This document shows positions 52,705-64,000 of a stretch of DNA of 64,000 nt, piece after piece. The position numbers and the translations under genes are program-made. Below the pieces are notes generated by a model, which was given only the letters and a program-made list of their open reading frames with translations, searched no databases and was not told where the DNA came from. How positions within the stretch are numbered: position 1 is the stretch's first letter; each line of letters begins with the position of its first letter. This DNA is from Methylothermaceae bacterium (GTDB lineage Bacteria; Pseudomonadota; Gammaproteobacteria; Methylococcales; Methylothermaceae): assembly GCA_026981855.1 (NCBI GenBank), contig JALSIB010000002.1, positions 1 through 64,000 on the forward strand, read 5' to 3'.

Positions 52705-52959
52705 TCACCCGTAGTGATAGCGGCATTGGGCGATGATGAGGCGGCCGTCCTGCACCGTGTAAACCAAGCGGTGTTCATGGTCGATCCGGCGGGACCAGAA
52801 TCCGGCCAGTTCATGCTTGAGCGGTTCGGGTTTGCCCGGCCCTTCGAACGGGTTGCGCTGGATGTCCCGGATCAACTGATTGATGCGCTTGAGCTTGGCC
52901 TTGTCGTGCTTTTGCCAGTACAGATAATCTTCCCAAGCTCGGCGCTCGAAGCTAATCAT
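52705..52959 (-). CDS. yoeB: YoeB-family toxin (RelE-type mRNA interferase)
   Basis: 84 residues. ISFERRAWEDYLYWQKHDKAKLKRINQLIRDI, then EGPGKPEPLKHELAGFWSRRI, EHRLVY and the C-terminal CRYHYG with the catalytic His. It cleaves mRNA at the ribosome. The antitoxin precedes it with 8 bases of overlap. The ATG at 52959 (MISFERRAW) is the family start. Confidence 0.93.
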   Translation of the reverse strand: MISFERRAWEDYLYWQKHDKAKLKRINQLIRDIQRNPFEGPGKPEPLKHELAGFWSRRIDHEHRLVYTVQDGRLIIAQCRYHYG

Positions 52960-53188
52960 CGGGCAGCAGTTCCTTGGCCTCGACATGCCGGCCTTGGCGG
53001 ATGTTTTCCAGCGCTTCGAGCAACCGGCGGCGGTTGGCCGGTTCCTTCAACAGATAGGCGGTCTCATCTTCCCCGGCCAGGCGCTTGAAGCGCAGAAACT
53101 CGATGAAATTCAACACCTCCCTGGCGTCTTCCTCGGGCAGGTCTTTGGTCAACTCGCGTATCCGCTCGGCGGTTTCCTGACGGCACAT
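52952..53188 (-). CDS. Antitoxin partner of YoeB with an unusual N-terminus
   Basis: 78 residues. The C-terminal half (YLLKEPANRRRLLEALENIRQGR) is the toxin-binding tail of YefM/RelB-type antitoxins. The N-terminal half (TAERIRELTKDLPEEDAREVLNFIEFLRFKRL) resembles DUF2281-type proteins rather than the Phd/YefM DNA-binding fold. The ATG at 53188 follows GGAGG. It overlaps yoeB. Confidence 0.7.
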   Translation of the reverse strand: MCRQETAERIRELTKDLPEEDAREVLNFIEFLRFKRLAGEDETAYLLKEPANRRRLLEALENIRQGRHVEAKELLPDD

Positions 53189-53190
53189 GG

Positions 53191-53406
53191 TCAAACCTCC
53201 TTCCGTTTCAACGGGGTGATCGTGGCGCTTTCCTTCACCCCGGCGGCTTTCAGAATGAAGCCGGTGATTTTCTGCATCGACTCTCGCAGGCGTTCCCCGT
53301 CGATCACGTCGCTGCCGGTTGAGTGATTCAGCAGGCGCTTGAGGACATAGGCGGGAATCAGGACGTTCTCGATAGCGGTTTTCGTGAAATTGAGCTTTCG
53401 GGGCAT
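53191..53406 (-). CDS. Small hypothetical gene upstream of the YoeB cassette
   Basis: 71 residues, basic (begins MPRKLNFTKTAIENVL, ends TPLKRKEV), no recognised domain. It ends 2 bases before the antitoxin start, so it is likely in the same operon. It could supply the DNA-binding function missing from the antitoxin, which is inference. Confidence 0.5.
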   Translation of the reverse strand: MPRKLNFTKTAIENVLIPAYVLKRLLNHSTGSDVIDGERLRESMQKITGFILKAAGVKESATITPLKRKEV

Positions 53407-53575: not shown

Positions 53576-53787
53576 TCGCCGACAGCAGGAAAAGCCTGCA
53601 AGGTTTCCGCGCTTTCCGCGACTGTTGTCAGGTAGTCAAGATTCAGCCAAACGCAAGGCTTTATGGGCAAGGTCTTTGCCAACGCTGAAATTCGCCCGTA
53701 AATTCAGGCCAGGCGCAGTCCTCCCCGGCCGCTGACGGGGCCTTCCGGCGGAAGTGACAGGTGGTAAGGTCAAGAAATGGCCATGGT

Positions 53788-53803
53788 GTATCCTGTAGGA
53801 TAC
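53788..53803. promoter_or_regulatory. Operator-like palindrome before the HI1419-type toxin
   Basis: GTATCC-TGTA-GGATAC, a perfect 16-base inverted repeat, 9 bases before the toxin start. Likely the autorepression site of this toxin-antitoxin module. Confidence 0.55.
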
Positions 53804-53812
53804 AATCAGAAG

Positions 53813-54106
53813 ATGGGCTATACGCTTGCCAGTACAACGACTTTCCGCAATTGGGTGGAGAAACTGGACCCCGGCATCCGGTGCCGGCTGCTCGCCAGAA
53901 TTGACCGGGTGTGCCTTGGCAACTTTGGAGACCACAAGCAGCTTCAGCCAGGGCTGTATGAGATGCGGTTTTTCTTCGGTTCCGGCTACCGCGTCTATTA
54001 CACCTTGCGAGATGGCCGAGTCGTGCTGCTGTTGGCGGGCGGTGACAAGTCCAGCCAGGCGCGCGACATCGCCAAGGCCAAAACCATCCTCGACAGTCTG
54101 GAGTGA
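53813..54106 (+). CDS. HI1419-type addiction-module killer protein (RelE/ParE superfamily)
   Basis: 97 residues. FRNWVEKLDPGIRCRLLARIDRVCLGNFGDHKQLQPGLYEMRFFFGSGYRVYY and LLLAGGDKSSQARDIAKAK are the TIGR02683-type signature. The antitoxin follows by 3 bases. An ATG at 53777 is in frame but would place the operator inside the gene. Confidence 0.88.
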   Translation: MGYTLASTTTFRNWVEKLDPGIRCRLLARIDRVCLGNFGDHKQLQPGLYEMRFFFGSGYRVYYTLRDGRVVLLLAGGDKSSQARDIAKAKTILDSLE

Positions 54107-54109
54107 ATC

Positions 54110-54418
54110 ATGAGCGAATCCATCAAACCTTTCGATCCGGCGGAATACCTGGAAACGGAAGAGGACATCCGCGAATTTCTGGAAGAAGCCACCAAAGGCA
54201 CACCGGAGGAATTCATCCATGCGCTGAATACCGCCGCCCGCGCTGCCGGCATGACCGAAGTCGCCCGTAAGGCCGGCGTCAGCCGTGCCAGTCTGTACAA
54301 GACGCTTTCCGGCGAGGGAAGCCCGAAATACGAAACGGTTAGAAAGATTGTCGAGGCCCTGGGCTGCCGCCTCACCGTGATTCCAGATGATACGGCGCGG
54401 CGGAATGAAGTTGCCTGA
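54110..54418 (+). CDS. HI1420-type antitoxin
   Basis: 102 residues. Helix-turn-helix core GMTEVARKAGVSRASLYKTLSGEGSPKYETVRKIVEALGCRLTVIP, the TIGR02684 pattern. It should bind the toxin and repress the pair. Confidence 0.9.
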   Translation: MSESIKPFDPAEYLETEEDIREFLEEATKGTPEEFIHALNTAARAAGMTEVARKAGVSRASLYKTLSGEGSPKYETVRKIVEALGCRLTVIPDDTARRNEVA

Positions 54419-54478
54419 ACGCCTCGTATCCATCCGCTCCAGCCGCGACCTCATCGAGTATTTCCGCACCCCAGTCCC

Positions 54479-54515
54479 TCGAATGGATCGCGCTGGATGT
54501 CCCGGATCAACTGAT
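54479..54515 (-). pseudogene. Fragment of a second yoeB gene
   Basis: 37 bases match positions 52843-52879 of yoeB with three substitutions; the last 26 bases are identical. On the minus strand it still reads QLIRDIQRDPFE-like codons. Nothing else of the gene remains in 54419-54640. Confidence 0.65.
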
Positions 54516-54640: not shown

Positions 54641-55300
54641 TCAGTAGAACCGCCGCTGGAACAGAACCGAAGTGATGACCTTGCGGTATCGGTTCCCGGC
54701 GTCTTTCTCCAGATCGACGCAGATCACCGGATCGAGCAGGGAATACTTTTGCGGTTCCGCGTGACAGACACTTTCTTTCAGCCAACTGTCGGTGACTTCC
54801 AGGTCGTAGAGTGTGTCGTGGCAGGGGAAGCGCCCCCGAATGACCGGCCGCCCGCGGCCGTGGCACCTGACCGACAGATCCAGCCGTTGCACCCGAATGA
54901 GAAGGGGCGTTGCCGTTTTCGGTTTGCCGGGGAGCAGATCGTTGTACCCCTCCCTGCTGTGATGGCCGTTTTCCCACAAGCCGGCCGGACGATCGAGCCA
55001 GGGCGTCAGCTCGCTCCAGGCGAGCCGGCCCAGATACCGCCAGCGGCCGTCTTGGGCCGGCAGGCGCCCCGGTTTCCCCGAATCGGCGGCGAAGGTGGCT
55101 GAAACGATATGCAGCACGTCCAGCGTTTCCCCGGTCACGCAACCCATTTCCCAGGAATGGAAGAAATCCCTTCCGCCCTCGGCCAGCGGCAGAAACCACG
55201 GCCCGGGGCCGTTTCCGCGCCATTCCTTGCCGGCGATGCGGTACCCCGCACCCCGGAGAGAGCGGGCGAGACAGACGAAGCTTTTGCTGTAAACGATCAT
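54641..55300 (-). CDS. Dual-OB-fold (DuOB-like) protein next to cas6
   Basis: 219 residues. The N-terminal OB pattern (VYSKSFVCLARSLRGAGYRIAGKEW, WFLPL) and the C-terminal RGRFPCHDTLYDLEVTDSWLKE match the dual-OB domain of prokaryotic conflict-system proteins. OB folds bind nucleic acid or nucleotides. The ATG at 55300 has AGGGAGG at the right distance. It is the last gene of the CRISPR region and points the same way as cas6. Its role is unknown; it may be an ancillary type III factor. Confidence 0.6.
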   Translation of the reverse strand: MIVYSKSFVCLARSLRGAGYRIAGKEWRGNGPGPWFLPLAEGGRDFFHSWEMGCVTGETLDVLHIVSATFAADSGKPGRLPAQDGRWRYLGRLAWSELTPWLDRPAGLWENGHHSREGYNDLLPGKPKTATPLLIRVQRLDLSVRCHGRGRPVIRGRFPCHDTLYDLEVTDSWLKESVCHAEPQKYSLLDPVICVDLEKDAGNRYRKVITSVLFQRRFY

Positions 55301-55484
55301 TCCATTCACCTCCCTGTAGGGTAAGGACGTACACCGCGGCTCCGATTGGTCATCCTGGATCGTCTGCCGGGAAAAGACTTCCTTTCCCCGATCCTTCGTG
55401 GAGACAGGATCGAGCCGAAGGAAGATTATGCCGGCCGGGGCTGAAGCGGAAATGAATGGCAGGCTTGCCGGCGGTGAGGGTGTG

Positions 55485-56426
55485 TCAGTCCGTCTCCGTC
55501 GATATCCGGTAACGCCCCAACCCCATGCTGACGCTCTTGCCCACGTGGAGCCAGCGCCCCAGCGCCAGCCAGGGCCAGAAGGGGCGCAGGTCGCCGGCCG
55601 CGAACGTCAGCCAGCCGGTCAGCCCGCCCATCTTCATCGCCGTCCGCTGGCGGGTGGAGTAGCGTTGCCAATCGTACCAGCCCAGGCTGCTTTCACCCGG
55701 TTCCACCGTTTCGGCGCGCGCCACCAGATCGCGGAAATCCACCTCCAGGGGGCCGTCGCCGTGGAAGTGATGCAGCAGCGACAGTCGCCGCAACAGGCTG
55801 GCGACGAGGCCGCGGAAGCGAAACGCCGCCGGTCCCATCAGCCGCTGTCCGTGGCGGATGCGCAGCGGGGTTTCGATCACCAGGCGGCAGACGCCCTCTG
55901 GCGGGGGCGGTGGCGCCTCCGCCTCCGCCGGCAGGGGGGAGAGGCCGCCGCCGGCCTCGTGAATCGGGTGCCACACGCCGCCCGCCAGCTGACTCACTCC
56001 CTCCAGACGATAGCGGCCGCGCCCCCTGCCGACCCCCTGCTTCCCCATTTCCCCCCAGGCATGAACGATATAAGGCAATTGCGAGACCGCGCGGCCGATC
56101 AGGGTCAGATCCACCGTGAACGCTTCATCCACCTTCCAGGTGGCGCCGTTGGTGGCTTCCGGGTGAAGAATGAAGGGGTGAGGCGCGGCGGAACAGTTCG
56201 CCAGCAGCGGCGTGTCCGGCGGTGGCGGGGTTTCGAAAATGTCGCTGTAAGCGCAGCTTCGCCACAACAGGCAGTCGGGGCAGCGGGGCGTTCGGGTGAC
56301 GCAGACGGTGCGTTTGAGGGCGTAACCAAAGGCCCCGCGCCAGGCGGAACCGGCGTAAGGAGGCAGCGACAGGGGCGTGACGGTGCGGCAGTGGAAGCGG
56401 AAGCGGGAAAAAGGCAGTGAAATCAT
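55485..56426 (-). CDS. cas6: CRISPR pre-crRNA endoribonuclease Cas6
   Basis: 313 residues. RAMP fold of the PF10040 type: N-terminal YAGSAWRGAFGYALK, a Cys cluster (CVTRTPRCPDCLLWRSC, about 42-58) that may bind metal, and the Gly-rich loop VGKSVSMGLGRYRI at the C-terminus. It cuts repeat RNA to make crRNA. Lies between the array and the dual-OB gene on the same strand. The unusually Pro-rich linker (about 165-180) is noted. Confidence 0.9.
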   Translation of the reverse strand: MISLPFSRFRFHCRTVTPLSLPPYAGSAWRGAFGYALKRTVCVTRTPRCPDCLLWRSCAYSDIFETPPPPDTPLLANCSAAPHPFILHPEATNGATWKVDEAFTVDLTLIGRAVSQLPYIVHAWGEMGKQGVGRGRGRYRLEGVSQLAGGVWHPIHEAGGGLSPLPAEAEAPPPPPEGVCRLVIETPLRIRHGQRLMGPAAFRFRGLVASLLRRLSLLHHFHGDGPLEVDFRDLVARAETVEPGESSLGWYDWQRYSTRQRTAMKMGGLTGWLTFAAGDLRPFWPWLALGRWLHVGKSVSMGLGRYRISTETD

Positions 56427-56512: not shown

Positions 56513-56757
56513 GTCTTAATCCCTTTTCAATCAGGTCACTTTCTTAACGGTTCGAGTGATAGCCCAGGGCCAGGGACGGCCGTCTTAATCCCTTTTCAAT
56601 CAGGTCACTTTCTTAACGTTTTTACGGGGGATTTCCGTAAATAAGAAAATTCGTCTTAATCCCTTTTCAATCAGGTCACTTTCTTAACACTGGTTCGATG
56701 TCACTCATCCGGGCAGCCGCCGTCTTAATCCCTTTTCAATCAGGTCACTTTCTTAAC
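56513..56757 (-). CRISPR. CRISPR array, four identical 36-bp repeats, three spacers
   Basis: Repeats at 56513-56548, 56582-56617, 56653-56688 and 56722-56757, each beginning GTCTTAATCC and ending TTTCTTAAC (plus strand). Spacers are 33, 35 and 33 bases (56549-56581, 56618-56652, 56689-56721). Transcription is probably on the minus strand: the crRNA 5' handle would be ATTAAGAC, and the AT-rich leader lies to the right. The array is very short and no cas1/cas2 is present in the window. Confidence 0.97.
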
Positions 56758-57097: not shown

Positions 57098-59212
57098 TCA
57101 TCTCTGGCGATGGGTGATGGCGAAGGCGTTTCTGTCTTCTAACAGGTCGTACACCAGGCTGTCCATCCGCTTGAGCATCCGTTCCTTATCCTCGGCGGGC
57201 AGGAAGGCGTGAATGAAGCCCTGCTTGAGGATGGCCAGGGCATCCCAGGCGCTCATATCCGGCCAGTATTCGGTCGCCTTGCGGAACTCTTCATTCAGGG
57301 TGGTGCGGCTGATGCCGGGATTGTCGGTGCACAAAGTCAATGGCACGCCCTTCTTCCAATAGCTGACCAGGGGATAGCTGGCCGCATCGTACCCCACCAC
57401 TTCGTCGTTGGAGGTTGGGCAGAGTTCCACGCAGATGCCCCGGTCGCGAAAGCGCTCCAGCAAGCGGGGCTGGTCGAGAAGGGTCAGGCCGTGGCCGACC
57501 CGGTCGGCATGCAGGCGGTAGGCGGCGTTCCAGATCTGCTCCGCCGGCGTGCCTTCGCCGGCATGGATGGTGATGGGGATGCACTCGGCAAAGGCGGGCT
57601 CGAAATGGGTGGCGATTTCCTTGAGCCGTTGGTCGCTGTCCCGGGCTTCATCGCCGGCCAGGTCCAGGCCGACGACGAAGTCTCCCAGCACCTGCCGTGC
57701 CTGGACGGCCAGCTGCACCGTTTCTCCCAATTTGTGGATCTTGCGCCGGTCGGCGATGATGATAAAGCGCAACTCGATCTCCTGGCGCCCGCCCCCGTAT
57801 TCGCGGGCGATGGCCTGCATCCGGCGCAGGAACTCGATCTGCTGTTGCCGGGTGCGGCGATATTTTTGCGGGCTGCCCCGCAGTTCCAGATAGCGCACTC
57901 CTTCCTTCCGCGCATCGTCCAACAGCGCCCGCAGGTAGGGTTCCAGGGCGGCGGGATGGGACAGGGTGGCCGAGCCGCTCAGCTCGCCGGGCCGTTCGTA
58001 GGCCGCAAAGCCCCGTGGCCCGTCGTTCAATCCCTTGCGTGGCTCCGTCTCTTGATAAAGATTGCGTTCGAGCTGTTCATCGCTGGCTTCCACCAGCAGG
58101 GCCGCCGCGTTGTGGCTGCGCACCCCCTGTTTCAGCAACTCGGGCCAGTTCCACGCCCAGGGTTTCGCGGTTTGTTCGAGCAGGGGGCCGACCTGCCGAT
58201 AGGCCTGTCGCCGTTCCTTGTCTGAAAGGCTTTGCCAGATGGCCCGCCCCACCTTGCGCTGGGCGGCGAGATCGAGGCAGCCGCCGATGTGCCGGTGCAG
58301 ATCCGCCTTGGGCAGGCGAGTGATCCACTCTCCCGGTGTGTCGCTCAGGCGGATGCCGCGCAGTTGAGCGATGCGGGCGGGTGGCAGGCGATAGAGGGAG
58401 CGCCAGCTTTCGTGGCGTTCGTCCCGGGCGACGGCCTGGAGAAAGTTGCCCAGCAGGCGGCTGCCTTCGCGTTCACGGCGCTCCAGCTCGCCGGGCAGGC
58501 TGGTGGAACCCGGTTTCCGGGTCCAGGCGAGTGGTTCCCCGTCTTCACTGGCCAGGGGCAGTGGAAAGTGTGTGCCGTCAACGTCCGGGAATCCGTGTTC
58601 ATGGATGTCCAGCAGTTCACTGCGCAGCCCCCGGCCCACCACCAGTGGCAACACGCCTTCGAGATCGGCCGGTTCCAGTGGCGATTGGAAGGAGGCGGGC
58701 GCGGCCTCTTGCATCTTCGGGGTCATCTGGCGGTAAGGGGGCGCGATGACGTGCAGCAGGGCATCGCATCCCATGAGCATCCCGGCTTGTTGCAGGTCAG
58801 CGGACATGGTCTTGCGGCCACCGGCCAGGCTGAGATAGAGGTGTCCGTTTTCACCCTTGTGGCGGGAGGCGAGCAGCACGGCGCGATAGATCAGTTCCTG
58901 GACTTGGGCCGTGCTCTCCCTGTCGGCGAGGTCGCTCACTTCCGCGGTGCGCCAGATACGCAGGGGCATGGCCGGCGCAATGGTCCGCTTCCAGGCTCTC
59001 AGCTTTTCCAGGCCGGAATCGAGGCCGGGGTCGTCGGTGGTGCAGATCCAGAGTTCATCGACCGCTTCCAGCCGGTATTCGCGCCGCAAGTTTTCGATGA
59101 ACGCCTTGCGGGGGTGACGTTTGTACAAGGGGCAACGGTCAGGGTCCAGCAGGGCCAGTGCCTCGGGAATGACCGCCCAGGTCTGGCCCAGGGTGCACAG
59201 CAGGATGTTCAT
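57098..59212 (-). CDS. cad1: Cad1: CARF domain fused to adenosine deaminase
   Basis: 704 residues from the ATG at 59212. CARF domain at about 1-165: it starts MNILLCTLGQTWAVIPEAL and has the SLAGGRKTMS ligand loop near 128-137. A helical linker (about 170-295) leads to the deaminase domain, with zinc ligands H306 and H308 (DLHRHIGG), H550 and catalytic E553 (HAGEG), H574 (VGHG), CPTSN at 598-602 and D630 (TDNP). All catalytic positions of the adenosine deaminase family are present. Described Cad1 proteins bind cyclic oligoadenylate through CARF and deaminate ATP to ITP. It follows csm5 on the same strand. A start at 59311 would add 33 unconserved residues. Confidence 0.9.
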   Translation of the reverse strand: MNILLCTLGQTWAVIPEALALLDPDRCPLYKRHPRKAFIENLRREYRLEAVDELWICTTDDPGLDSGLEKLRAWKRTIAPAMPLRIWRTAEVSDLADRESTAQVQELIYRAVLLASRHKGENGHLYLSLAGGRKTMSADLQQAGMLMGCDALLHVIAPPYRQMTPKMQEAAPASFQSPLEPADLEGVLPLVVGRGLRSELLDIHEHGFPDVDGTHFPLPLASEDGEPLAWTRKPGSTSLPGELERREREGSRLLGNFLQAVARDERHESWRSLYRLPPARIAQLRGIRLSDTPGEWITRLPKADLHRHIGGCLDLAAQRKVGRAIWQSLSDKERRQAYRQVGPLLEQTAKPWAWNWPELLKQGVRSHNAAALLVEASDEQLERNLYQETEPRKGLNDGPRGFAAYERPGELSGSATLSHPAALEPYLRALLDDARKEGVRYLELRGSPQKYRRTRQQQIEFLRRMQAIAREYGGGRQEIELRFIIIADRRKIHKLGETVQLAVQARQVLGDFVVGLDLAGDEARDSDQRLKEIATHFEPAFAECIPITIHAGEGTPAEQIWNAAYRLHADRVGHGLTLLDQPRLLERFRDRGICVELCPTSNDEVVGYDAASYPLVSYWKKGVPLTLCTDNPGISRTTLNEEFRKATEYWPDMSAWDALAILKQGFIHAFLPAEDKERMLKRMDSLVYDLLEDRNAFAITHRQR

Positions 59213-59333
59213 GGGACAGGTGGCTCCGGCCGGGGTTTTCGTCCGTTCAGGCTGCGACATCGCCCTGTAATGCGAGGAAAGCCGGGGAAAATCCGGCTTC
59301 GCTGAAGTCATAACGGATCGTGATGTCTCGCAT

Positions 59334-61007
59334 TCAATCCTCCTCGAGGTTCAGGAATTGCTCCACCGCCTTGCAGCGATCGCGTTGTTTGAGTTTTTGC
59401 TTGTTTTTTCCCTGGAAGCCGGGGTTCCATCTGTTTTCGGCCTGCCAGAGGGCTTTGATTTTTAATGCGACTGTGTGTTTGTTTTCATCACTCTCCCAGT
59501 CGCCCGCTTGCAGTTTATTGAACAGAACCGCCGCCGGATTATTGTTTTTTTCGCGCCGGCAGATTTCCTCCAGCTCACGCTCCAGTGGCGAAAGTTGGGC
59601 GAGCCTGGCTGCTTCTTCGGCTTTTTTGCGGGCCGCCTCGTCTTCCTGTTCGGCCTGCTCCCTGGCGCGCTTCTCCGCTTCTTCTTTGATGGCTTGCAGC
59701 TTGTCCGCCAGTTCCCGCTGGTATTGCCTGACGGTAGAAATCCAGGCCCGCATTTTTTCACCATGGCGGGCCATGAGGGCCTCGGCCGGCTTCCATTCGG
59801 GCAGTGCCTCTTTAGGCTCGGTCATTTCCACCAGCAGCCAGCCGAAGGGGCGTAGATAGCGTTTGTCCTGACGGCTTCCGGTGGCCAGCCAAAGGGTTTT
59901 CGCCTGGGGTTCCCAGGCGGGTTTTTCGCCTTTCCCCTTCATGATTTTGATGGAGCGCACACCATTGAGGGTGACCGATTCGGCGCCGCTGTGCCGGCCC
60001 ACCCGCAGCAAAAAGGCGTCGTTGTTTTGCAACCGCCGCTCGATAGCGGGATCTCCCAGCAGGGTTTCCACCGTTTGGCGCCACTCGCTGTCGAGAAGCC
60101 CGCGCTTTCCGAGCAGATCGGTTTCGCGCTCGAAGATGGGGCGGTAGAAACGATTGCAGGCGGTTGCGATTTCCCCAAAGCTGAATTGGAAGCGAGGCAG
60201 TTTGTCGCCCCGCTCATCGAAACCGGCCAGGTCGGAAATATTGAGCAACCCCTGAAAGGCGCGGAAACGGAAGGGCGCGGCGCATTCGAGCATTTGATAC
60301 AGGTTTCTTTGCTCCGCCTGAGAGGAAACTTCCCTGCCATGTTTCATCACCGGCTGTTTCTTGCGGTTGACGGTGAACAGGATTTCGGCGCTGTTGAGTT
60401 CGTCCGGCCCCTGCCAGGCGCAGTCGCCGACCTGAATCAGGCGCATCGGGTCTTGATGCAAATCGCGCATGGTGTAGCCAAACAGGCGCTGCTGTATGTC
60501 GCGATTACGCTCGCCGCGTTCCGCCCGGTTTCCCTGGTTGACCGCATCCAGCAGGGCCGTCCGCATCGCACCCTTCAATCCGCTGCCGGGCAGGAACAAG
60601 CGCCTGTCCCGGGGGTTGTAGGCCGCCCGCTCGATCTCCAGCGCGTTGAGCACTTGCTTGCCACTGCTTTCGATATTGGCCGTCTTGCCCACCCGGTCTT
60701 CATACAGCTTTGCCAGTTCGTCACTGACATACACCACGTTGACAGCGGCTGGTATCAGCCATTTGCGGTTTTCGTGGAAAAAGGCCTGCACCTGCTTGAG
60801 CAGGTGGGGCGTGGCCTTGCCGGACAGAATCTTGTCCAGCGCCTGGCGCTGGCTGGCGGGCAGGTTTTCCAGCGCGGTTTGATCGAATTCGTACAGCGCA
60901 TTGCCTTCGATGACATAGCCTGTGGGGGTATAGTCTTCGTCGGTGCCCATGTGCACCGGCGACAAGGGGGTGATCCAGAGTTTTCGGGTTTCGGGAATGC
61001 CGCTCAT
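59334..61007 (-). CDS. csm5: Csm5, with a long C-terminal extension
   Basis: 557 residues, versus about 340-400 for typical Csm5. The RAMP core (to about 400) has LWITPLSPVHMGTDEDYTPTGYVIEG and the Gly-rich FLPGSGLKGAMRTALLDA. Residues about 410-557 form a charged, Ala/Glu/Lys-rich coiled coil (KEEAEKRAREQAEQEDEAAR) and a basic end (GKNKQKLKQRDRCKAVEQF). Csm5 caps the crRNA 3' side of the complex. It overlaps csm4 by 4 bases. Confidence 0.88.
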   Translation of the reverse strand: MSGIPETRKLWITPLSPVHMGTDEDYTPTGYVIEGNALYEFDQTALENLPASQRQALDKILSGKATPHLLKQVQAFFHENRKWLIPAAVNVVYVSDELAKLYEDRVGKTANIESSGKQVLNALEIERAAYNPRDRRLFLPGSGLKGAMRTALLDAVNQGNRAERGERNRDIQQRLFGYTMRDLHQDPMRLIQVGDCAWQGPDELNSAEILFTVNRKKQPVMKHGREVSSQAEQRNLYQMLECAAPFRFRAFQGLLNISDLAGFDERGDKLPRFQFSFGEIATACNRFYRPIFERETDLLGKRGLLDSEWRQTVETLLGDPAIERRLQNNDAFLLRVGRHSGAESVTLNGVRSIKIMKGKGEKPAWEPQAKTLWLATGSRQDKRYLRPFGWLLVEMTEPKEALPEWKPAEALMARHGEKMRAWISTVRQYQRELADKLQAIKEEAEKRAREQAEQEDEAARKKAEEAARLAQLSPLERELEEICRREKNNNPAAVLFNKLQAGDWESDENKHTVALKIKALWQAENRWNPGFQGKNKQKLKQRDRCKAVEQFLNLEED

Positions 61008-61945
61008 GCTCGCTCCTCCAGAGAGACCGGCAGCACCGGCGCGTAGCCTTGATGTACGGTTTGCGGGATGGCCTTCGACAGGCTGCCGTCACCGCCCAGC
61101 CCCCGGCCGATGAAGACGGACTCATTGTATTCCACGGGTGTCAGAATAGCGGCGGTGTCCGCCATCAATACCGGCGTCTTGAAGGGTTGCCCGCTGTGAA
61201 CCGCGATGTCGCCATGGCGGCCGAAACGGGTGAAGGGTTGATACCAGCTATTGTCCGGCCGAAGTTTCATCCCTTGCGGCGCGCAAGGCGCCAGGGTGTA
61301 CCAGGCGTTGGCGTTGGATTGCGCCGGCCATCGGGCTTCCTGAACCGCCTCCACCTCGAATTTCCCCAGGCCGATGCTGGCGTCGCGCCCGTAGCCGGAC
61401 AGTCCCACATCCACGAGCAGTTGGCGGATTTCTTCTATTTTTATCCGCTCGTCGTGGGCGAGATAGAGGTCGAAGCGCAGGCCATCGGCGAAACGCAGTT
61501 GCGGCATGACATAGGGCGCGAATTCCCCTGTGCCGGTGGTGCCGGTCATGCGGTTGATGGTGTTGTGGGGCTGTATCGCCGCCTCCGCCAGATCGGCGTC
61601 AAAAATTTTCCGCTCAGGGTTGGCGTGATGGAGCCAGGTGTCAACCGGTTCGGCGAAATGCGCCACCGGAATCCAGTTGCGTTTCTTCACCTGCTTGCGA
61701 TCCGCGCCGGCCACTTCGGCATATCGGTGCAGGGGCAAGGCGGGACGCGGCAAAAACCCGGATGGAAAGGCGTCGGAAACCACCAGAAAGGGCCTGTTCT
61801 GCGTGTAGCCTTCGAGCAATTCATCGAGCCGCGCCTCGCCCCGGCGGTGCAATATGGCCCAGCAAAGCTGCCCGAACAGGGTGTCGCCGCGAATCACGCC
61901 GCCGAAGCCGGACCGGGGACTGATCTGTGCCATCAGCGTTTTCAT
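61004..61945 (-). CDS. csm4: Csm4
   Basis: 313 residues. It begins LMAQISPRSGFGGVIRGDTLFGQLCWAIL, then PFLVVSDAFPSGFLPRPALPL, the Csm4 pattern; a Gly-rich region (SGYGRDASIGLGKFEV) forms the RAMP loop. It holds the crRNA 5' handle and contacts Cas10. ATG at 61945; a TTG three bases earlier is less likely. Confidence 0.9.
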   Translation of the reverse strand: MKTLMAQISPRSGFGGVIRGDTLFGQLCWAILHRRGEARLDELLEGYTQNRPFLVVSDAFPSGFLPRPALPLHRYAEVAGADRKQVKKRNWIPVAHFAEPVDTWLHHANPERKIFDADLAEAAIQPHNTINRMTGTTGTGEFAPYVMPQLRFADGLRFDLYLAHDERIKIEEIRQLLVDVGLSGYGRDASIGLGKFEVEAVQEARWPAQSNANAWYTLAPCAPQGMKLRPDNSWYQPFTRFGRHGDIAVHSGQPFKTPVLMADTAAILTPVEYNESVFIGRGLGGDGSLSKAIPQTVHQGYAPVLPVSLEERA

Positions 61946-61951
61946 CAAAGC

Positions 61952-62659
61952 CTATACCTCGACCTGTTCCAGGCGCGCCTGTACCGGTTCGCCATCCAGT
62001 TGCAGACCGCGGAAAGCCACCTTGCCATAGCCCCGGGAGATGGAGCCGCCCAGGCCGGACAATTCCACCAGCTTGAGGCCGCGCAAGACCGGTTCCAGCA
62101 AGTCCTCGCCATCGATGACTTTCAGGGTCAACTGGAAGTTGAAGCGCGCGCCGGCGGGGACGCGTTCGGTGTTGCGGGGGTTTTCCGCCGTGCCCTTGAT
62201 CCGGTCGATGGAGTTTTCCATCTTGGTTTCGGTGAGCAGCAGGTTTTTCTCACGCATTTCATCCACCCAGCCGGAATCCAGCTCACAGTCCCAGAAGGCG
62301 AGCCGGGTGGGGCCGATTTCCCTCACCAGGCTTTCATCGTCGTTCGTGCCGGTAGGGGCGTAACCGAACAGGCGGAGTATCTCGATGCCCTGCTCACGGT
62401 TGCCGTTGAGCCTGTCGATGTGCTTGATGCCCAGGGGCTTGCCATCGGAAATGGAGACCGTGCCCGCATGCCATTCCATCAGGCTGCGCATCTTGCCCTT
62501 GAGGCTGGAGCCGGGGATGTAGGGCTGATTGGTGACCGGGTTCTTGATCACCGGATTGTCGGTGCCGCCGATGTGCATTTCGGTATTGCCGCTGCCGATG
62601 TGGAGGCCGGAGACCAGTTCAATGGTGCCGGTGAGTTTTGCGATTTTGTCGAGTTTCAT
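61952..62659 (-). CDS. csm3: Csm3, target-RNA nuclease backbone subunit
   Basis: 235 residues. GLHIGSGNTEMHIGGTDNPVIKNPVTNQPYIPGSSLKGKMRSLME holds the catalytic Asp (TDNPV, near residue 33) that cuts target RNA every 6 bases. ETKMENSIDRIKGTAENPRNTERVPAGARF and the SGLGGSISRGYGKVAF loop complete the family. GGAG precedes the ATG. Confidence 0.96.
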   Translation of the reverse strand: MKLDKIAKLTGTIELVSGLHIGSGNTEMHIGGTDNPVIKNPVTNQPYIPGSSLKGKMRSLMEWHAGTVSISDGKPLGIKHIDRLNGNREQGIEILRLFGYAPTGTNDDESLVREIGPTRLAFWDCELDSGWVDEMREKNLLLTETKMENSIDRIKGTAENPRNTERVPAGARFNFQLTLKVIDGEDLLEPVLRGLKLVELSGLGGSISRGYGKVAFRGLQLDGEPVQARLEQVEV

Positions 62660-62662
62660 CGG

Positions 62663-63121
62663 TCAGTCTCCTTTTTCCAGCTTGTAAAATCCGAGGAACG
62701 CCTCGAAAAACAGTTTGGCCACCCGCAGATCATCCGTGCTTTTGACGAAATCGATAGTCTGCTCCATCAAATCCACAAAAGCGCCATCGACAAGCTTGCG
62801 GCCTTCGGCATAGGCGGCCTTGGCCTTGAGCATGCGTACAAAGGGCAGGTATTCATCGAACTCGTCTTGGTTCTGGCGGGCTTTCTCCTCCCACATCACC
62901 AGCTCGTCGTAGAAACGGCGCAGCTGCGTGCTCTTGTTTTGTTCCCGCCGGCAATCGGAAACCGTTTTTGCAGCCTCTTTTGCCGTTTTGTCGAACAGAT
63001 CGGTGTCGATTTTACCTTCACCATTCCTGAATCGAATCGTGAACCCCAGCGTCCGCCTCTGATTCCGGTTGTTTTGCTGGGGCCTGTGGCCCCCTCTGTT
63101 TTGTCGATGATGATCGGCCAT
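62663..63121 (-). CDS. csm2: Csm2 (Cas11) small subunit
   Basis: 152 residues. The basic, Asn/Arg-rich N-terminus is followed by the helical core (TQLRRFYDELVMWEEKARQ, LPFVRMLKAKAAYAEGRKLVDGAF) typical of Csm2. It lines the target-RNA groove. The ATG at 63121 follows GAGGAGAAATGTG. Confidence 0.9.
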   Translation of the reverse strand: MADHHRQNRGGHRPQQNNRNQRRTLGFTIRFRNGEGKIDTDLFDKTAKEAAKTVSDCRREQNKSTQLRRFYDELVMWEEKARQNQDEFDEYLPFVRMLKAKAAYAEGRKLVDGAFVDLMEQTIDFVKSTDDLRVAKLFFEAFLGFYKLEKGD

Positions 63122-63133
63122 CACATTTCTCCT

Positions 63134-64000
63134 CTAGCTGCGCTGCTGATAAAGATGAATAAAAAGTGGAATCCGGAAACGGCTTCCATGTTGTTCAATG
63201 GGCTCGCTGATGATGCTGGCCAGTTCCTGCATACGCCGTTTTCGTTCCGCGTCGTTAAGGCCACGCATGCGTTCCAGCATCCGCCAGCTGCGGTAACTGA
63301 ACCAGGATCGCCAGATGGCGTTTTCCGGTCTGGGCTGGTCGGATTTCAGGTTTTCGGCCATCTCGGCCAGTTCCTGCAGCCGGTACAGGTAACCGGTGCT
63401 CAGTCCGAATTCCTCGTCCTTTTCCCGTATCTTTTCGAAGACCTGCCACAGCCTGTCGAAGTCGTCCCAGGAGACGGTCTCGCCAAACAGCGTCACCGCG
63501 TTCTTTTCGCCATCGCCATGGCTCTTGGCGTGTTCAAGCGCCTGTTCGGCCATATCGCCCAGCTGGCGCACCGGCATGCCCGGCTTGGTCATCAGCAGGC
63601 CGGCGGAAAAATGAATGTCGCGGTTGTCCGCCACGTAGCGGGAAAACGCCAAACGCATCTTGCGCGCCAGTTCGATGGTGCTTTTCCACGGACCGATCAG
63701 AAAGAAATCGTCGCCGCCCGCGAACACGGTGTAGGTGGAGGGGTATTTCTTGCGGCACAACCACGGTAGATAAACGGCGAAAAAGGCGTTCATCTGCCGT
63801 GACAACGACGCCCATTTGGCAAAGCTGGGGCGCTTCAGGCCCTGCTCGAAGATCCGCCCCAGGTTGTCCACATCGCCTTTGAGCACCATCAGGGCTTCGG
63901 TGCCGTTCCAGCGGCCTTTTTCGTCCAGCCAGCGGTCGTCGCGGGCGATATGTTCAAAGGATTTGGGGGCTCGGGTGTCCCACTCGGCATCTTCCTCGAT
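63134..64000 (-). CDS. cas10: Cas10/Csm1, C-terminal part (cut by the window end)
   Basis: 289 residues visible, open through the right edge. The second Palm domain carries LMVLKGDVDNLGRIFEQGL and the intact cyclase motif FAGGDDFFLIG; AGLLMTKPGMPVRQLGDMAEQALEHAKSHG follows. This is the cyclic-oligoadenylate synthase half, so second-messenger output is expected. The HD domain, if present, lies outside the window. The helical D4 domain ends the protein. Ends 12 bases before csm2. Confidence 0.95.
   Translation of the reverse strand: MEEDAEWDTRAPKSFEHIARDDRWLDEKGRWNGTEALMVLKGDVDNLGRIFEQGLKRPSFAKWASLSRQMNAFFAVYLPWLCRKKYPSTYTVFAGGDDFFLIGPWKSTIELARKMRLAFSRYVADNRDIHFSAGLLMTKPGMPVRQLGDMAEQALEHAKSHGDGEKNAVTLFGETVSWDDFDRLWQVFEKIREKDEEFGLSTGYLYRLQELAEMAENLKSDQPRPENAIWRSWFSYRSWRMLERMRGLNDAERKRRMQELASIISEPIEQHGSRFRIPLFIHLYQQRS

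Follow-up and report, generated by a model that had tools for sequence, protein, structure and literature searches.

A long-form CARF-adenosine deaminase of the Cad1 family in a type III-A CRISPR locus of a Methylothermaceae bacterium

The type III-A locus and its cad1 gene

The stretch of DNA analysed here (64,000 nucleotides, hereafter the window) carries a complete and intact type III-A set (cas10, csm2, csm3, csm4 and csm5), a CRISPR array and cas6 downstream of that set and, beginning 121 bp after the csm5 stop (59334), a gene for a fusion of a CARF domain with an adenosine deaminase (ADA), the long form of cad1 (Table 1). The cas10 gene, which runs past the window, was completed from neighbouring sequence of the same contig (G000:C2), and both the GGDD polymerase motif and the HD motif of Cas10 are intact. 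No exact match was found between the three spacers of the array in the window and viral contigs.

Table 1. Genes, domains and motifs of the type III-A locus (residue numbers refer to the 704-aa Cad1 product)
Feature	Position	Strand	Basis
cas6	55485..56426	-	PADLOC Cas6 6.5e-107
CRISPR array, 4 identical 36-nt repeats, 3 spacers	56513..56757		array beside cas6
cad1 long form, CARF-adenosine deaminase fusion, 704 aa + stop	57098..59212	-	PADLOC PDLC01908; pLDDT 94.5 model; full-length Cad1 fold match
Adenosine deaminase domain, residues 294-697	57122..58333	-	Pfam A_deaminase 1.6e-42; rmsd 2.2 A over 366 residues vs TaqCad1 chain 9ofd_K
TDN, residues 629-631: zinc ligand D630, Cad1-signature N631	57320..57328	-	D 100%; N 73/80 long, 8/8 short
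GHG, residues 573-575: catalytic H574; GHA in short Cad1	57488..57496	-	alignment
HAGE, residues 550-553: zinc ligand H550, catalytic E553	57554..57565	-	100% conserved
Glu406, at essential Met294 (Bacteroidales) / Met311 (Taq) of short Cad1	57995..57997	-	alignment
HRHIG, residues 306-310: zinc-ligand histidines H306 and H308, Gly310	58283..58297	-	100% in 80 long + 8 short
CARF sensor domain, residues 1-195	58628..59212	-	Pfam Cas_NE0113 and CARF5 models; Rossmann-type strand/helix order in model
LAGGRKT cOA-binding motif, residues 129-135	58808..58828	-	alignment; K134 = K104 (Bacteroidales) / K106 (Taq)
csm5	59334..61007	-	PADLOC Csm5 4.8e-21
csm4	61004..61948	-	NCBIfam cas5_csm4 1.3e-38
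csm3	61952..62659	-	NCBIfam cas7_TM1809 4.6e-66
csm2	62663..63124	-	Pfam Csm2_III-A 1.2e-15
cas10/csm1	63134..64000, past window to G000:C2:65869	-	Cas10a 1.4e-142

The cad1 open reading frame on the minus strand is intact over 57098-59311, and reading it from 59311 gives 737 aa. A start at 59311 was discarded, as the residue encoded at 59212 is the one with which the closest relatives begin. The start codon there is MNILLCTLGQTW, and we take it as the natural start because the nearest relatives share MNILLCTLG, the N-terminus of the resulting product, as their first residues.

This product is a member of the Cad1 family in the broad sense, that is, a CARF-ADA fusion. In the profile search, the PADLOC model CARF5--CARF_ADA (PDLC01908), which spans the short and long forms described below and does not split them, matched it along its full length (E=2.9e-204, 678 bits, residues 34-726 of the 737-aa reading), and Pfam recognised A_deaminase (1.6e-42) and Cas_NE0113 (1.1e-9). 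An AlphaFold2 model built from 44 homologues reached a mean pLDDT of 94.5. Its top 38 PDB matches by Foldseek were all Cad1 chains (best E 1.1e-30), and VIA-align 2 matched it along the whole length to the solved Cad1 structures at Z about 42, with canonical ADAs next at Z about 36 and RdrB at 22-24. No solved structure closer than the three short-form Cad1s was found.

The locus had originally been predicted to encode, right after csm5 of a type III-A system, a Cad1-type protein with a CARF sensor bearing a GGRK loop and a deaminase with every zinc and catalytic residue in place. All of this was borne out by the gene order, by the CARF similarity in the Pfam and PADLOC searches, by LAGGRKT and by the deaminase motifs H306xH308, HAGE, VGHG (residues 572-575) and TDNP (residues 629-632). 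Structure prediction and alignment with known Cad1, which had been proposed as a check, gave the same answer. The expected mode of action, conversion of adenine nucleotides, is likewise supported, as a prediction.

Two forms of the CARF-adenosine deaminase family

CARF-ADA proteins fall into a short form of about 608-642 aa (about 600-640 aa for the characterised Cad1s) and a long form of about 680-790 aa, the latter across many phyla, and the split between them had bootstrap 100 in our tree. On the evidence of its sequence, the window protein is a long-form member, in a clade separate from the characterised Cad1 branch. The Cad1s that have been characterised structurally, three in all (those of Bacteroidales and T. 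aquaticum, and LngCAAD), are short-form proteins. The published Cad1 tree was restricted to homologues of 550-650 aa (PMC11645235), and by this filter the first Cad1 survey left the long form out. We found no published assay of a protein identifiable as long-form; the Desulfomicrobiaceae Cad1 that Baca et al. tested for toxicity may be of either form. As far as we found, what has been published on how Cad1 works (its ATP specificity, the hexamer, the ATP between the domains and twist-and-squeeze) describes one branch of the family.

We collected 80 relatives from named genomes, which were found with a long-form query and are therefore silent on proportions, and five from same-order genomes. 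The short-form set was small, with eight members (six from genomes plus the Taq and Bacteroidales Cad1), two of them assembled from printed alignments with gaps. To counter the query bias, we also sampled with the family model, taking full-length matches with E <= 1e-90 from about 1,540 genomes of four phyla and the window's class; in these samples, which are modest too, the long form was at least as common as the short one in several phyla.

When stand-alone ADAs were used as outgroup, the CARF-ADAs grouped together (0.92) and the short-form clade was recovered (0.99); long-form monophyly was unsupported (0.05). Since its own monophyly is unsupported and it shares ADA features (GHG, CPxSN, TD(N)P and Glu at 642 are common to the long form and ADAs), the long form may be an ancestral grade from which the short, studied form is derived. 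Among plasmids, only partial matches were found, none covering 80% of the query, and the annotated ones were stand-alone ADAs; no relatives were found in viral contigs.

The short-form proteins (Bacteroidales HAJ98955.1, TaqCad1 and LngCAAD, also called Cad1/CAAD) have the CARF-linker-ADA layout and the full-length fold in common with the window protein, which is about 100 aa longer and only 21-28% identical to them. Of the short-form residues that the papers test or name, those kept are K104/K106 (K134 in the window protein), T35 (T59), H243 with the other zinc and catalytic residues, G264 (G310), G314 (G409), R397 (R489), W472 (W561) and N549 (N631).

Active-site residues and the predicted reaction

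The Lys at position 134 is present in all 80 long and all eight short members; in TaqCad1, the corresponding K106A mutant lost cA4 binding (PMC12669630). H306, H308, H550, E553, H574 and D630 are likewise present in 80/80 long and 8/8 short members, the window protein included. Two other positions bear on the substrate. Gly310 stands at a position that is Asp in canonical ADA and Gly in Cad1, and in TaqCad1 both Asn549 and Gly264 occupy the sites of canonical aspartates, where N549D or N549D/G264D destroyed ATP deamination (PMC12669630). All solved Cad1s have TDN, and the window protein keeps both G310 and N631, which speaks for an adenine nucleotide, not adenosine, as its substrate. The original prediction had read the Asn of TDNP as a departure from a usual TDDP; this part has to be turned round, as TDN is the norm of Cad1 (see Table 1) and TDDP is usual for canonical ADA. 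Asp replaces Asn631 in seven of the 80 long-form members, so that the substrate may vary within the long form. Long-form proteins with TDD rather than TDN (relatives L105, L108, L113, L116, L117, L120 and L122, also L128, L145, L151 and L157) are a natural test set for substrate choice; in TaqCad1 that exchange would put an end to ATP deamination.

The real departures from the studied Cad1s appear, from the alignment, to lie elsewhere. The active-site Met294/Met311 is E406 in the window protein; this residue was assigned to the active site by alignment (Y405, G409, G413 and S414 around it are conserved) together with the role published for Met294, and in Bacteroidales Cad1 the M294A mutation abolished toxicity and activity (PMC11645235). 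The hexamer contacts W349, R408 and R453 are aligned with I459, E497 and A542; loss of the hexamer abolished deamination in the Bacteroidales and Taq Cad1, both enzymes in which it was tested. The inter-domain ATP contacts R161, K165 and K589 are aligned with D202, T214 and L686, which weighs little because the same positions vary even among short members. The ATP-contact residues compared are those named in the text of the Cad1 papers. Moreover, NDD after HAGE, R570, A575, A601, K606 and N642 belong to the short form alone, and the window protein is without the NDD; it reads GHG where they have GHA, its CPxSN has S in place of A, and K606 and N642 are replaced by V and E.

We favour, as rather likely, the reading that the window protein is a cOA-activated adenine-nucleotide deaminase, a long form of the Cad1 (CARF5-ADA) family, which most likely converts ATP to ITP. 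The family match, the full-length Cad1 fold, the catalytic residues, Gly310 with Asn631, the Cas10 GGDD/HD motifs and the type III or CARF genes beside most long-form loci support it, while E406 in place of Met294, the changed short-form active-site positions and the lack of conservation of hexamer and inter-domain contacts stand against it. Tested Cad1 relatives convert cellular ATP to ITP and thereby stop viruses. For the window protein we infer that cOA activates it, that the messenger is cA4 and the substrate ATP, and that growth arrest is the outcome: the Csm complex would bind viral RNA, whereupon the GGDD domain of Cas10 would make cOA, most likely cA4, which would bind to Lys134 in the CARF pair; this would switch on the ADA domain, which would deaminate an adenine nucleotide (most likely ATP, giving ITP), and the ensuing growth arrest would limit phage spread. 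The messenger is probably cA4, because csx16 adjoins cas10, with card1 in the same gene block; the tested Csx16 is a cA4-specific ring nuclease (PMC12409355) and Card1 is a cA4-activated nuclease (PMC9704534).

It is possible, though unlikely, that the long form is activated in the same way and acts on another adenine substrate (dATP, ADP/AMP, NAD or another). This alternative arises because the pocket Met has become a conserved Glu and the NDD and Lys positions of the short form are lost. Position 406 is Glu in 78/80 long members and Met in 7/8 short ones, the Met was indispensable in Bacteroidales Cad1, the Asp found at the N631 position of some long-form members is the residue that is incompatible with ATP deamination in TaqCad1, and the residues peculiar to the short form are restricted to it. 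However, the window protein keeps the Gly310 and Asn631 that were shown to tune Cad1 to ATP, and a Glu in the pocket could suit ATP through coordination of the nucleotide's Mg ion. A further-reaching proposal, which we hold to be quite unlikely, is that the long-form CARF-ADAs make up a second class of CRISPR deaminase effector, cOA-activated and with a non-ATP adenine substrate, without the Cad1 hexamer contacts and with Glu406 as the substrate-defining residue. If the substrate or the assembly of the long form does differ, CRISPR deaminase effectors have two mechanisms, not one; if not, Met294 and the hexamer contacts, which are thought essential, are replaceable, and this constrains the catalytic model.

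That the protein is mainly a ring nuclease or cOA sink, with a weak or conditional deaminase, is very improbable. The in vivo effect of TaqCad1 is mild, and in (S/T)W of motif I and K134 of motif II the CARF domain is similar to that of TaqCad1, which cleaves cA4 (PMC12669630), but the locus already has a dedicated ring nuclease, Csx16, and the deaminase residues do not vary among the 80 long-form proteins, which come from many phyla; purifying selection would not maintain these residues for a sink.

An ordinary housekeeping adenosine deaminase that lies beside the csm genes by chance is extremely improbable, and in its plain version this reading is ruled out by the CARF fusion. Canonical ADAs (mouse ADA and bacterial Add) share with the window protein the TIM-barrel fold (rmsd 2.6 A over 335 residues to 1add), the zinc and catalytic residues, GHG, CPxSN (CPTSN in the window protein), TDNP and the Glu at 642. 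They differ in standing alone without a CARF domain and in having Asp19 and Asp296 where the window protein has Gly310 and Asn631. The N-terminal fusion to a CARF domain with GGRKT, the Gly310 that is neither Asp nor Glu, the Asn631 and the conserved placement in type III loci all argue against this reading, and TaqCad1, in which these two residues are identical, shows hardly any activity on adenosine. The least probable alternative is A-to-I editing of adenines in RNA or transcripts, for which the generic ADA fold is the only point, whereas short-form Cad1 is inactive on RNA (PMC11645235) and the closest structural matches are deaminases of mononucleosides and mononucleotides.

RdrB of RADAR is another anti-phage protein with the ADA fold, and it makes ITP from ATP (PMC9994260); it differs from the window family in having no CARF domain, in being activated by RdrA, in forming a dodecamer and in accepting dATP too.

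Surroundings of the locus and of its relatives

Type III cas genes or other CARF effector genes were recognisable at at least 63 of the 80 long-form loci, and a Card1 homologue lies near cad1, often directly after it, at 33 of the 80. In the closest relatives of the window protein (L045-L049 and L090), a gene for a Csx1-type CARF-HEPN nuclease directly precedes cad1. A genome search found no full Csx1-HEPN gene in the window genome; a broken N-terminal scrap of a Csx1 CARF-HEPN gene lies at G000:C2:66491-66610 (minus strand), between cmr6-like and csx16, with about 17 codons in frame and the rest out of frame. Away from this locus, the window genome also encodes a house-cleaning ITPase (Ham1/RdgB), as do 14/14 control genomes.

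Just past the window, the type III block continues (G000:C2:66036-79912). It holds genes for the Csx16 ring nuclease, for RAMPs of the cmr6-like and cmr1-like kinds, for a CARF protein of NE0113 type, for two Cas1 proteins of which the second has diverged, for Cas2, for a SAVED protein that has TM segments and for the Card1 nuclease, and these contents place one Cas10 amid three or more predicted cOA effectors. At G000:C2:74469-75706 lies a second CRISPR array, with 18 repeats, and its repeat differs from that of the window array at two positions (three in the first repeat unit).

Within the window, a 28-codon ORF (59247-59333, minus strand) that has a strong ribosome-binding site directly adjoins the stop of csm5 and terminates ahead of cad1. 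Nothing similar to it was noted, and it may serve as a relay for translation or be what is left of a gene that was lost. A DuOB (dual OB) domain protein (54641-55309, minus strand; PADLOC candidate PDC-M45A, E 9e-29) is encoded beside cas6. Two small gene pairs at 52705-53194 and 53777-54418 resemble RelE/HigB-type toxins with antitoxins, and a 46-nt stretch is 87% identical between 52835-52880 and 54470-54515.
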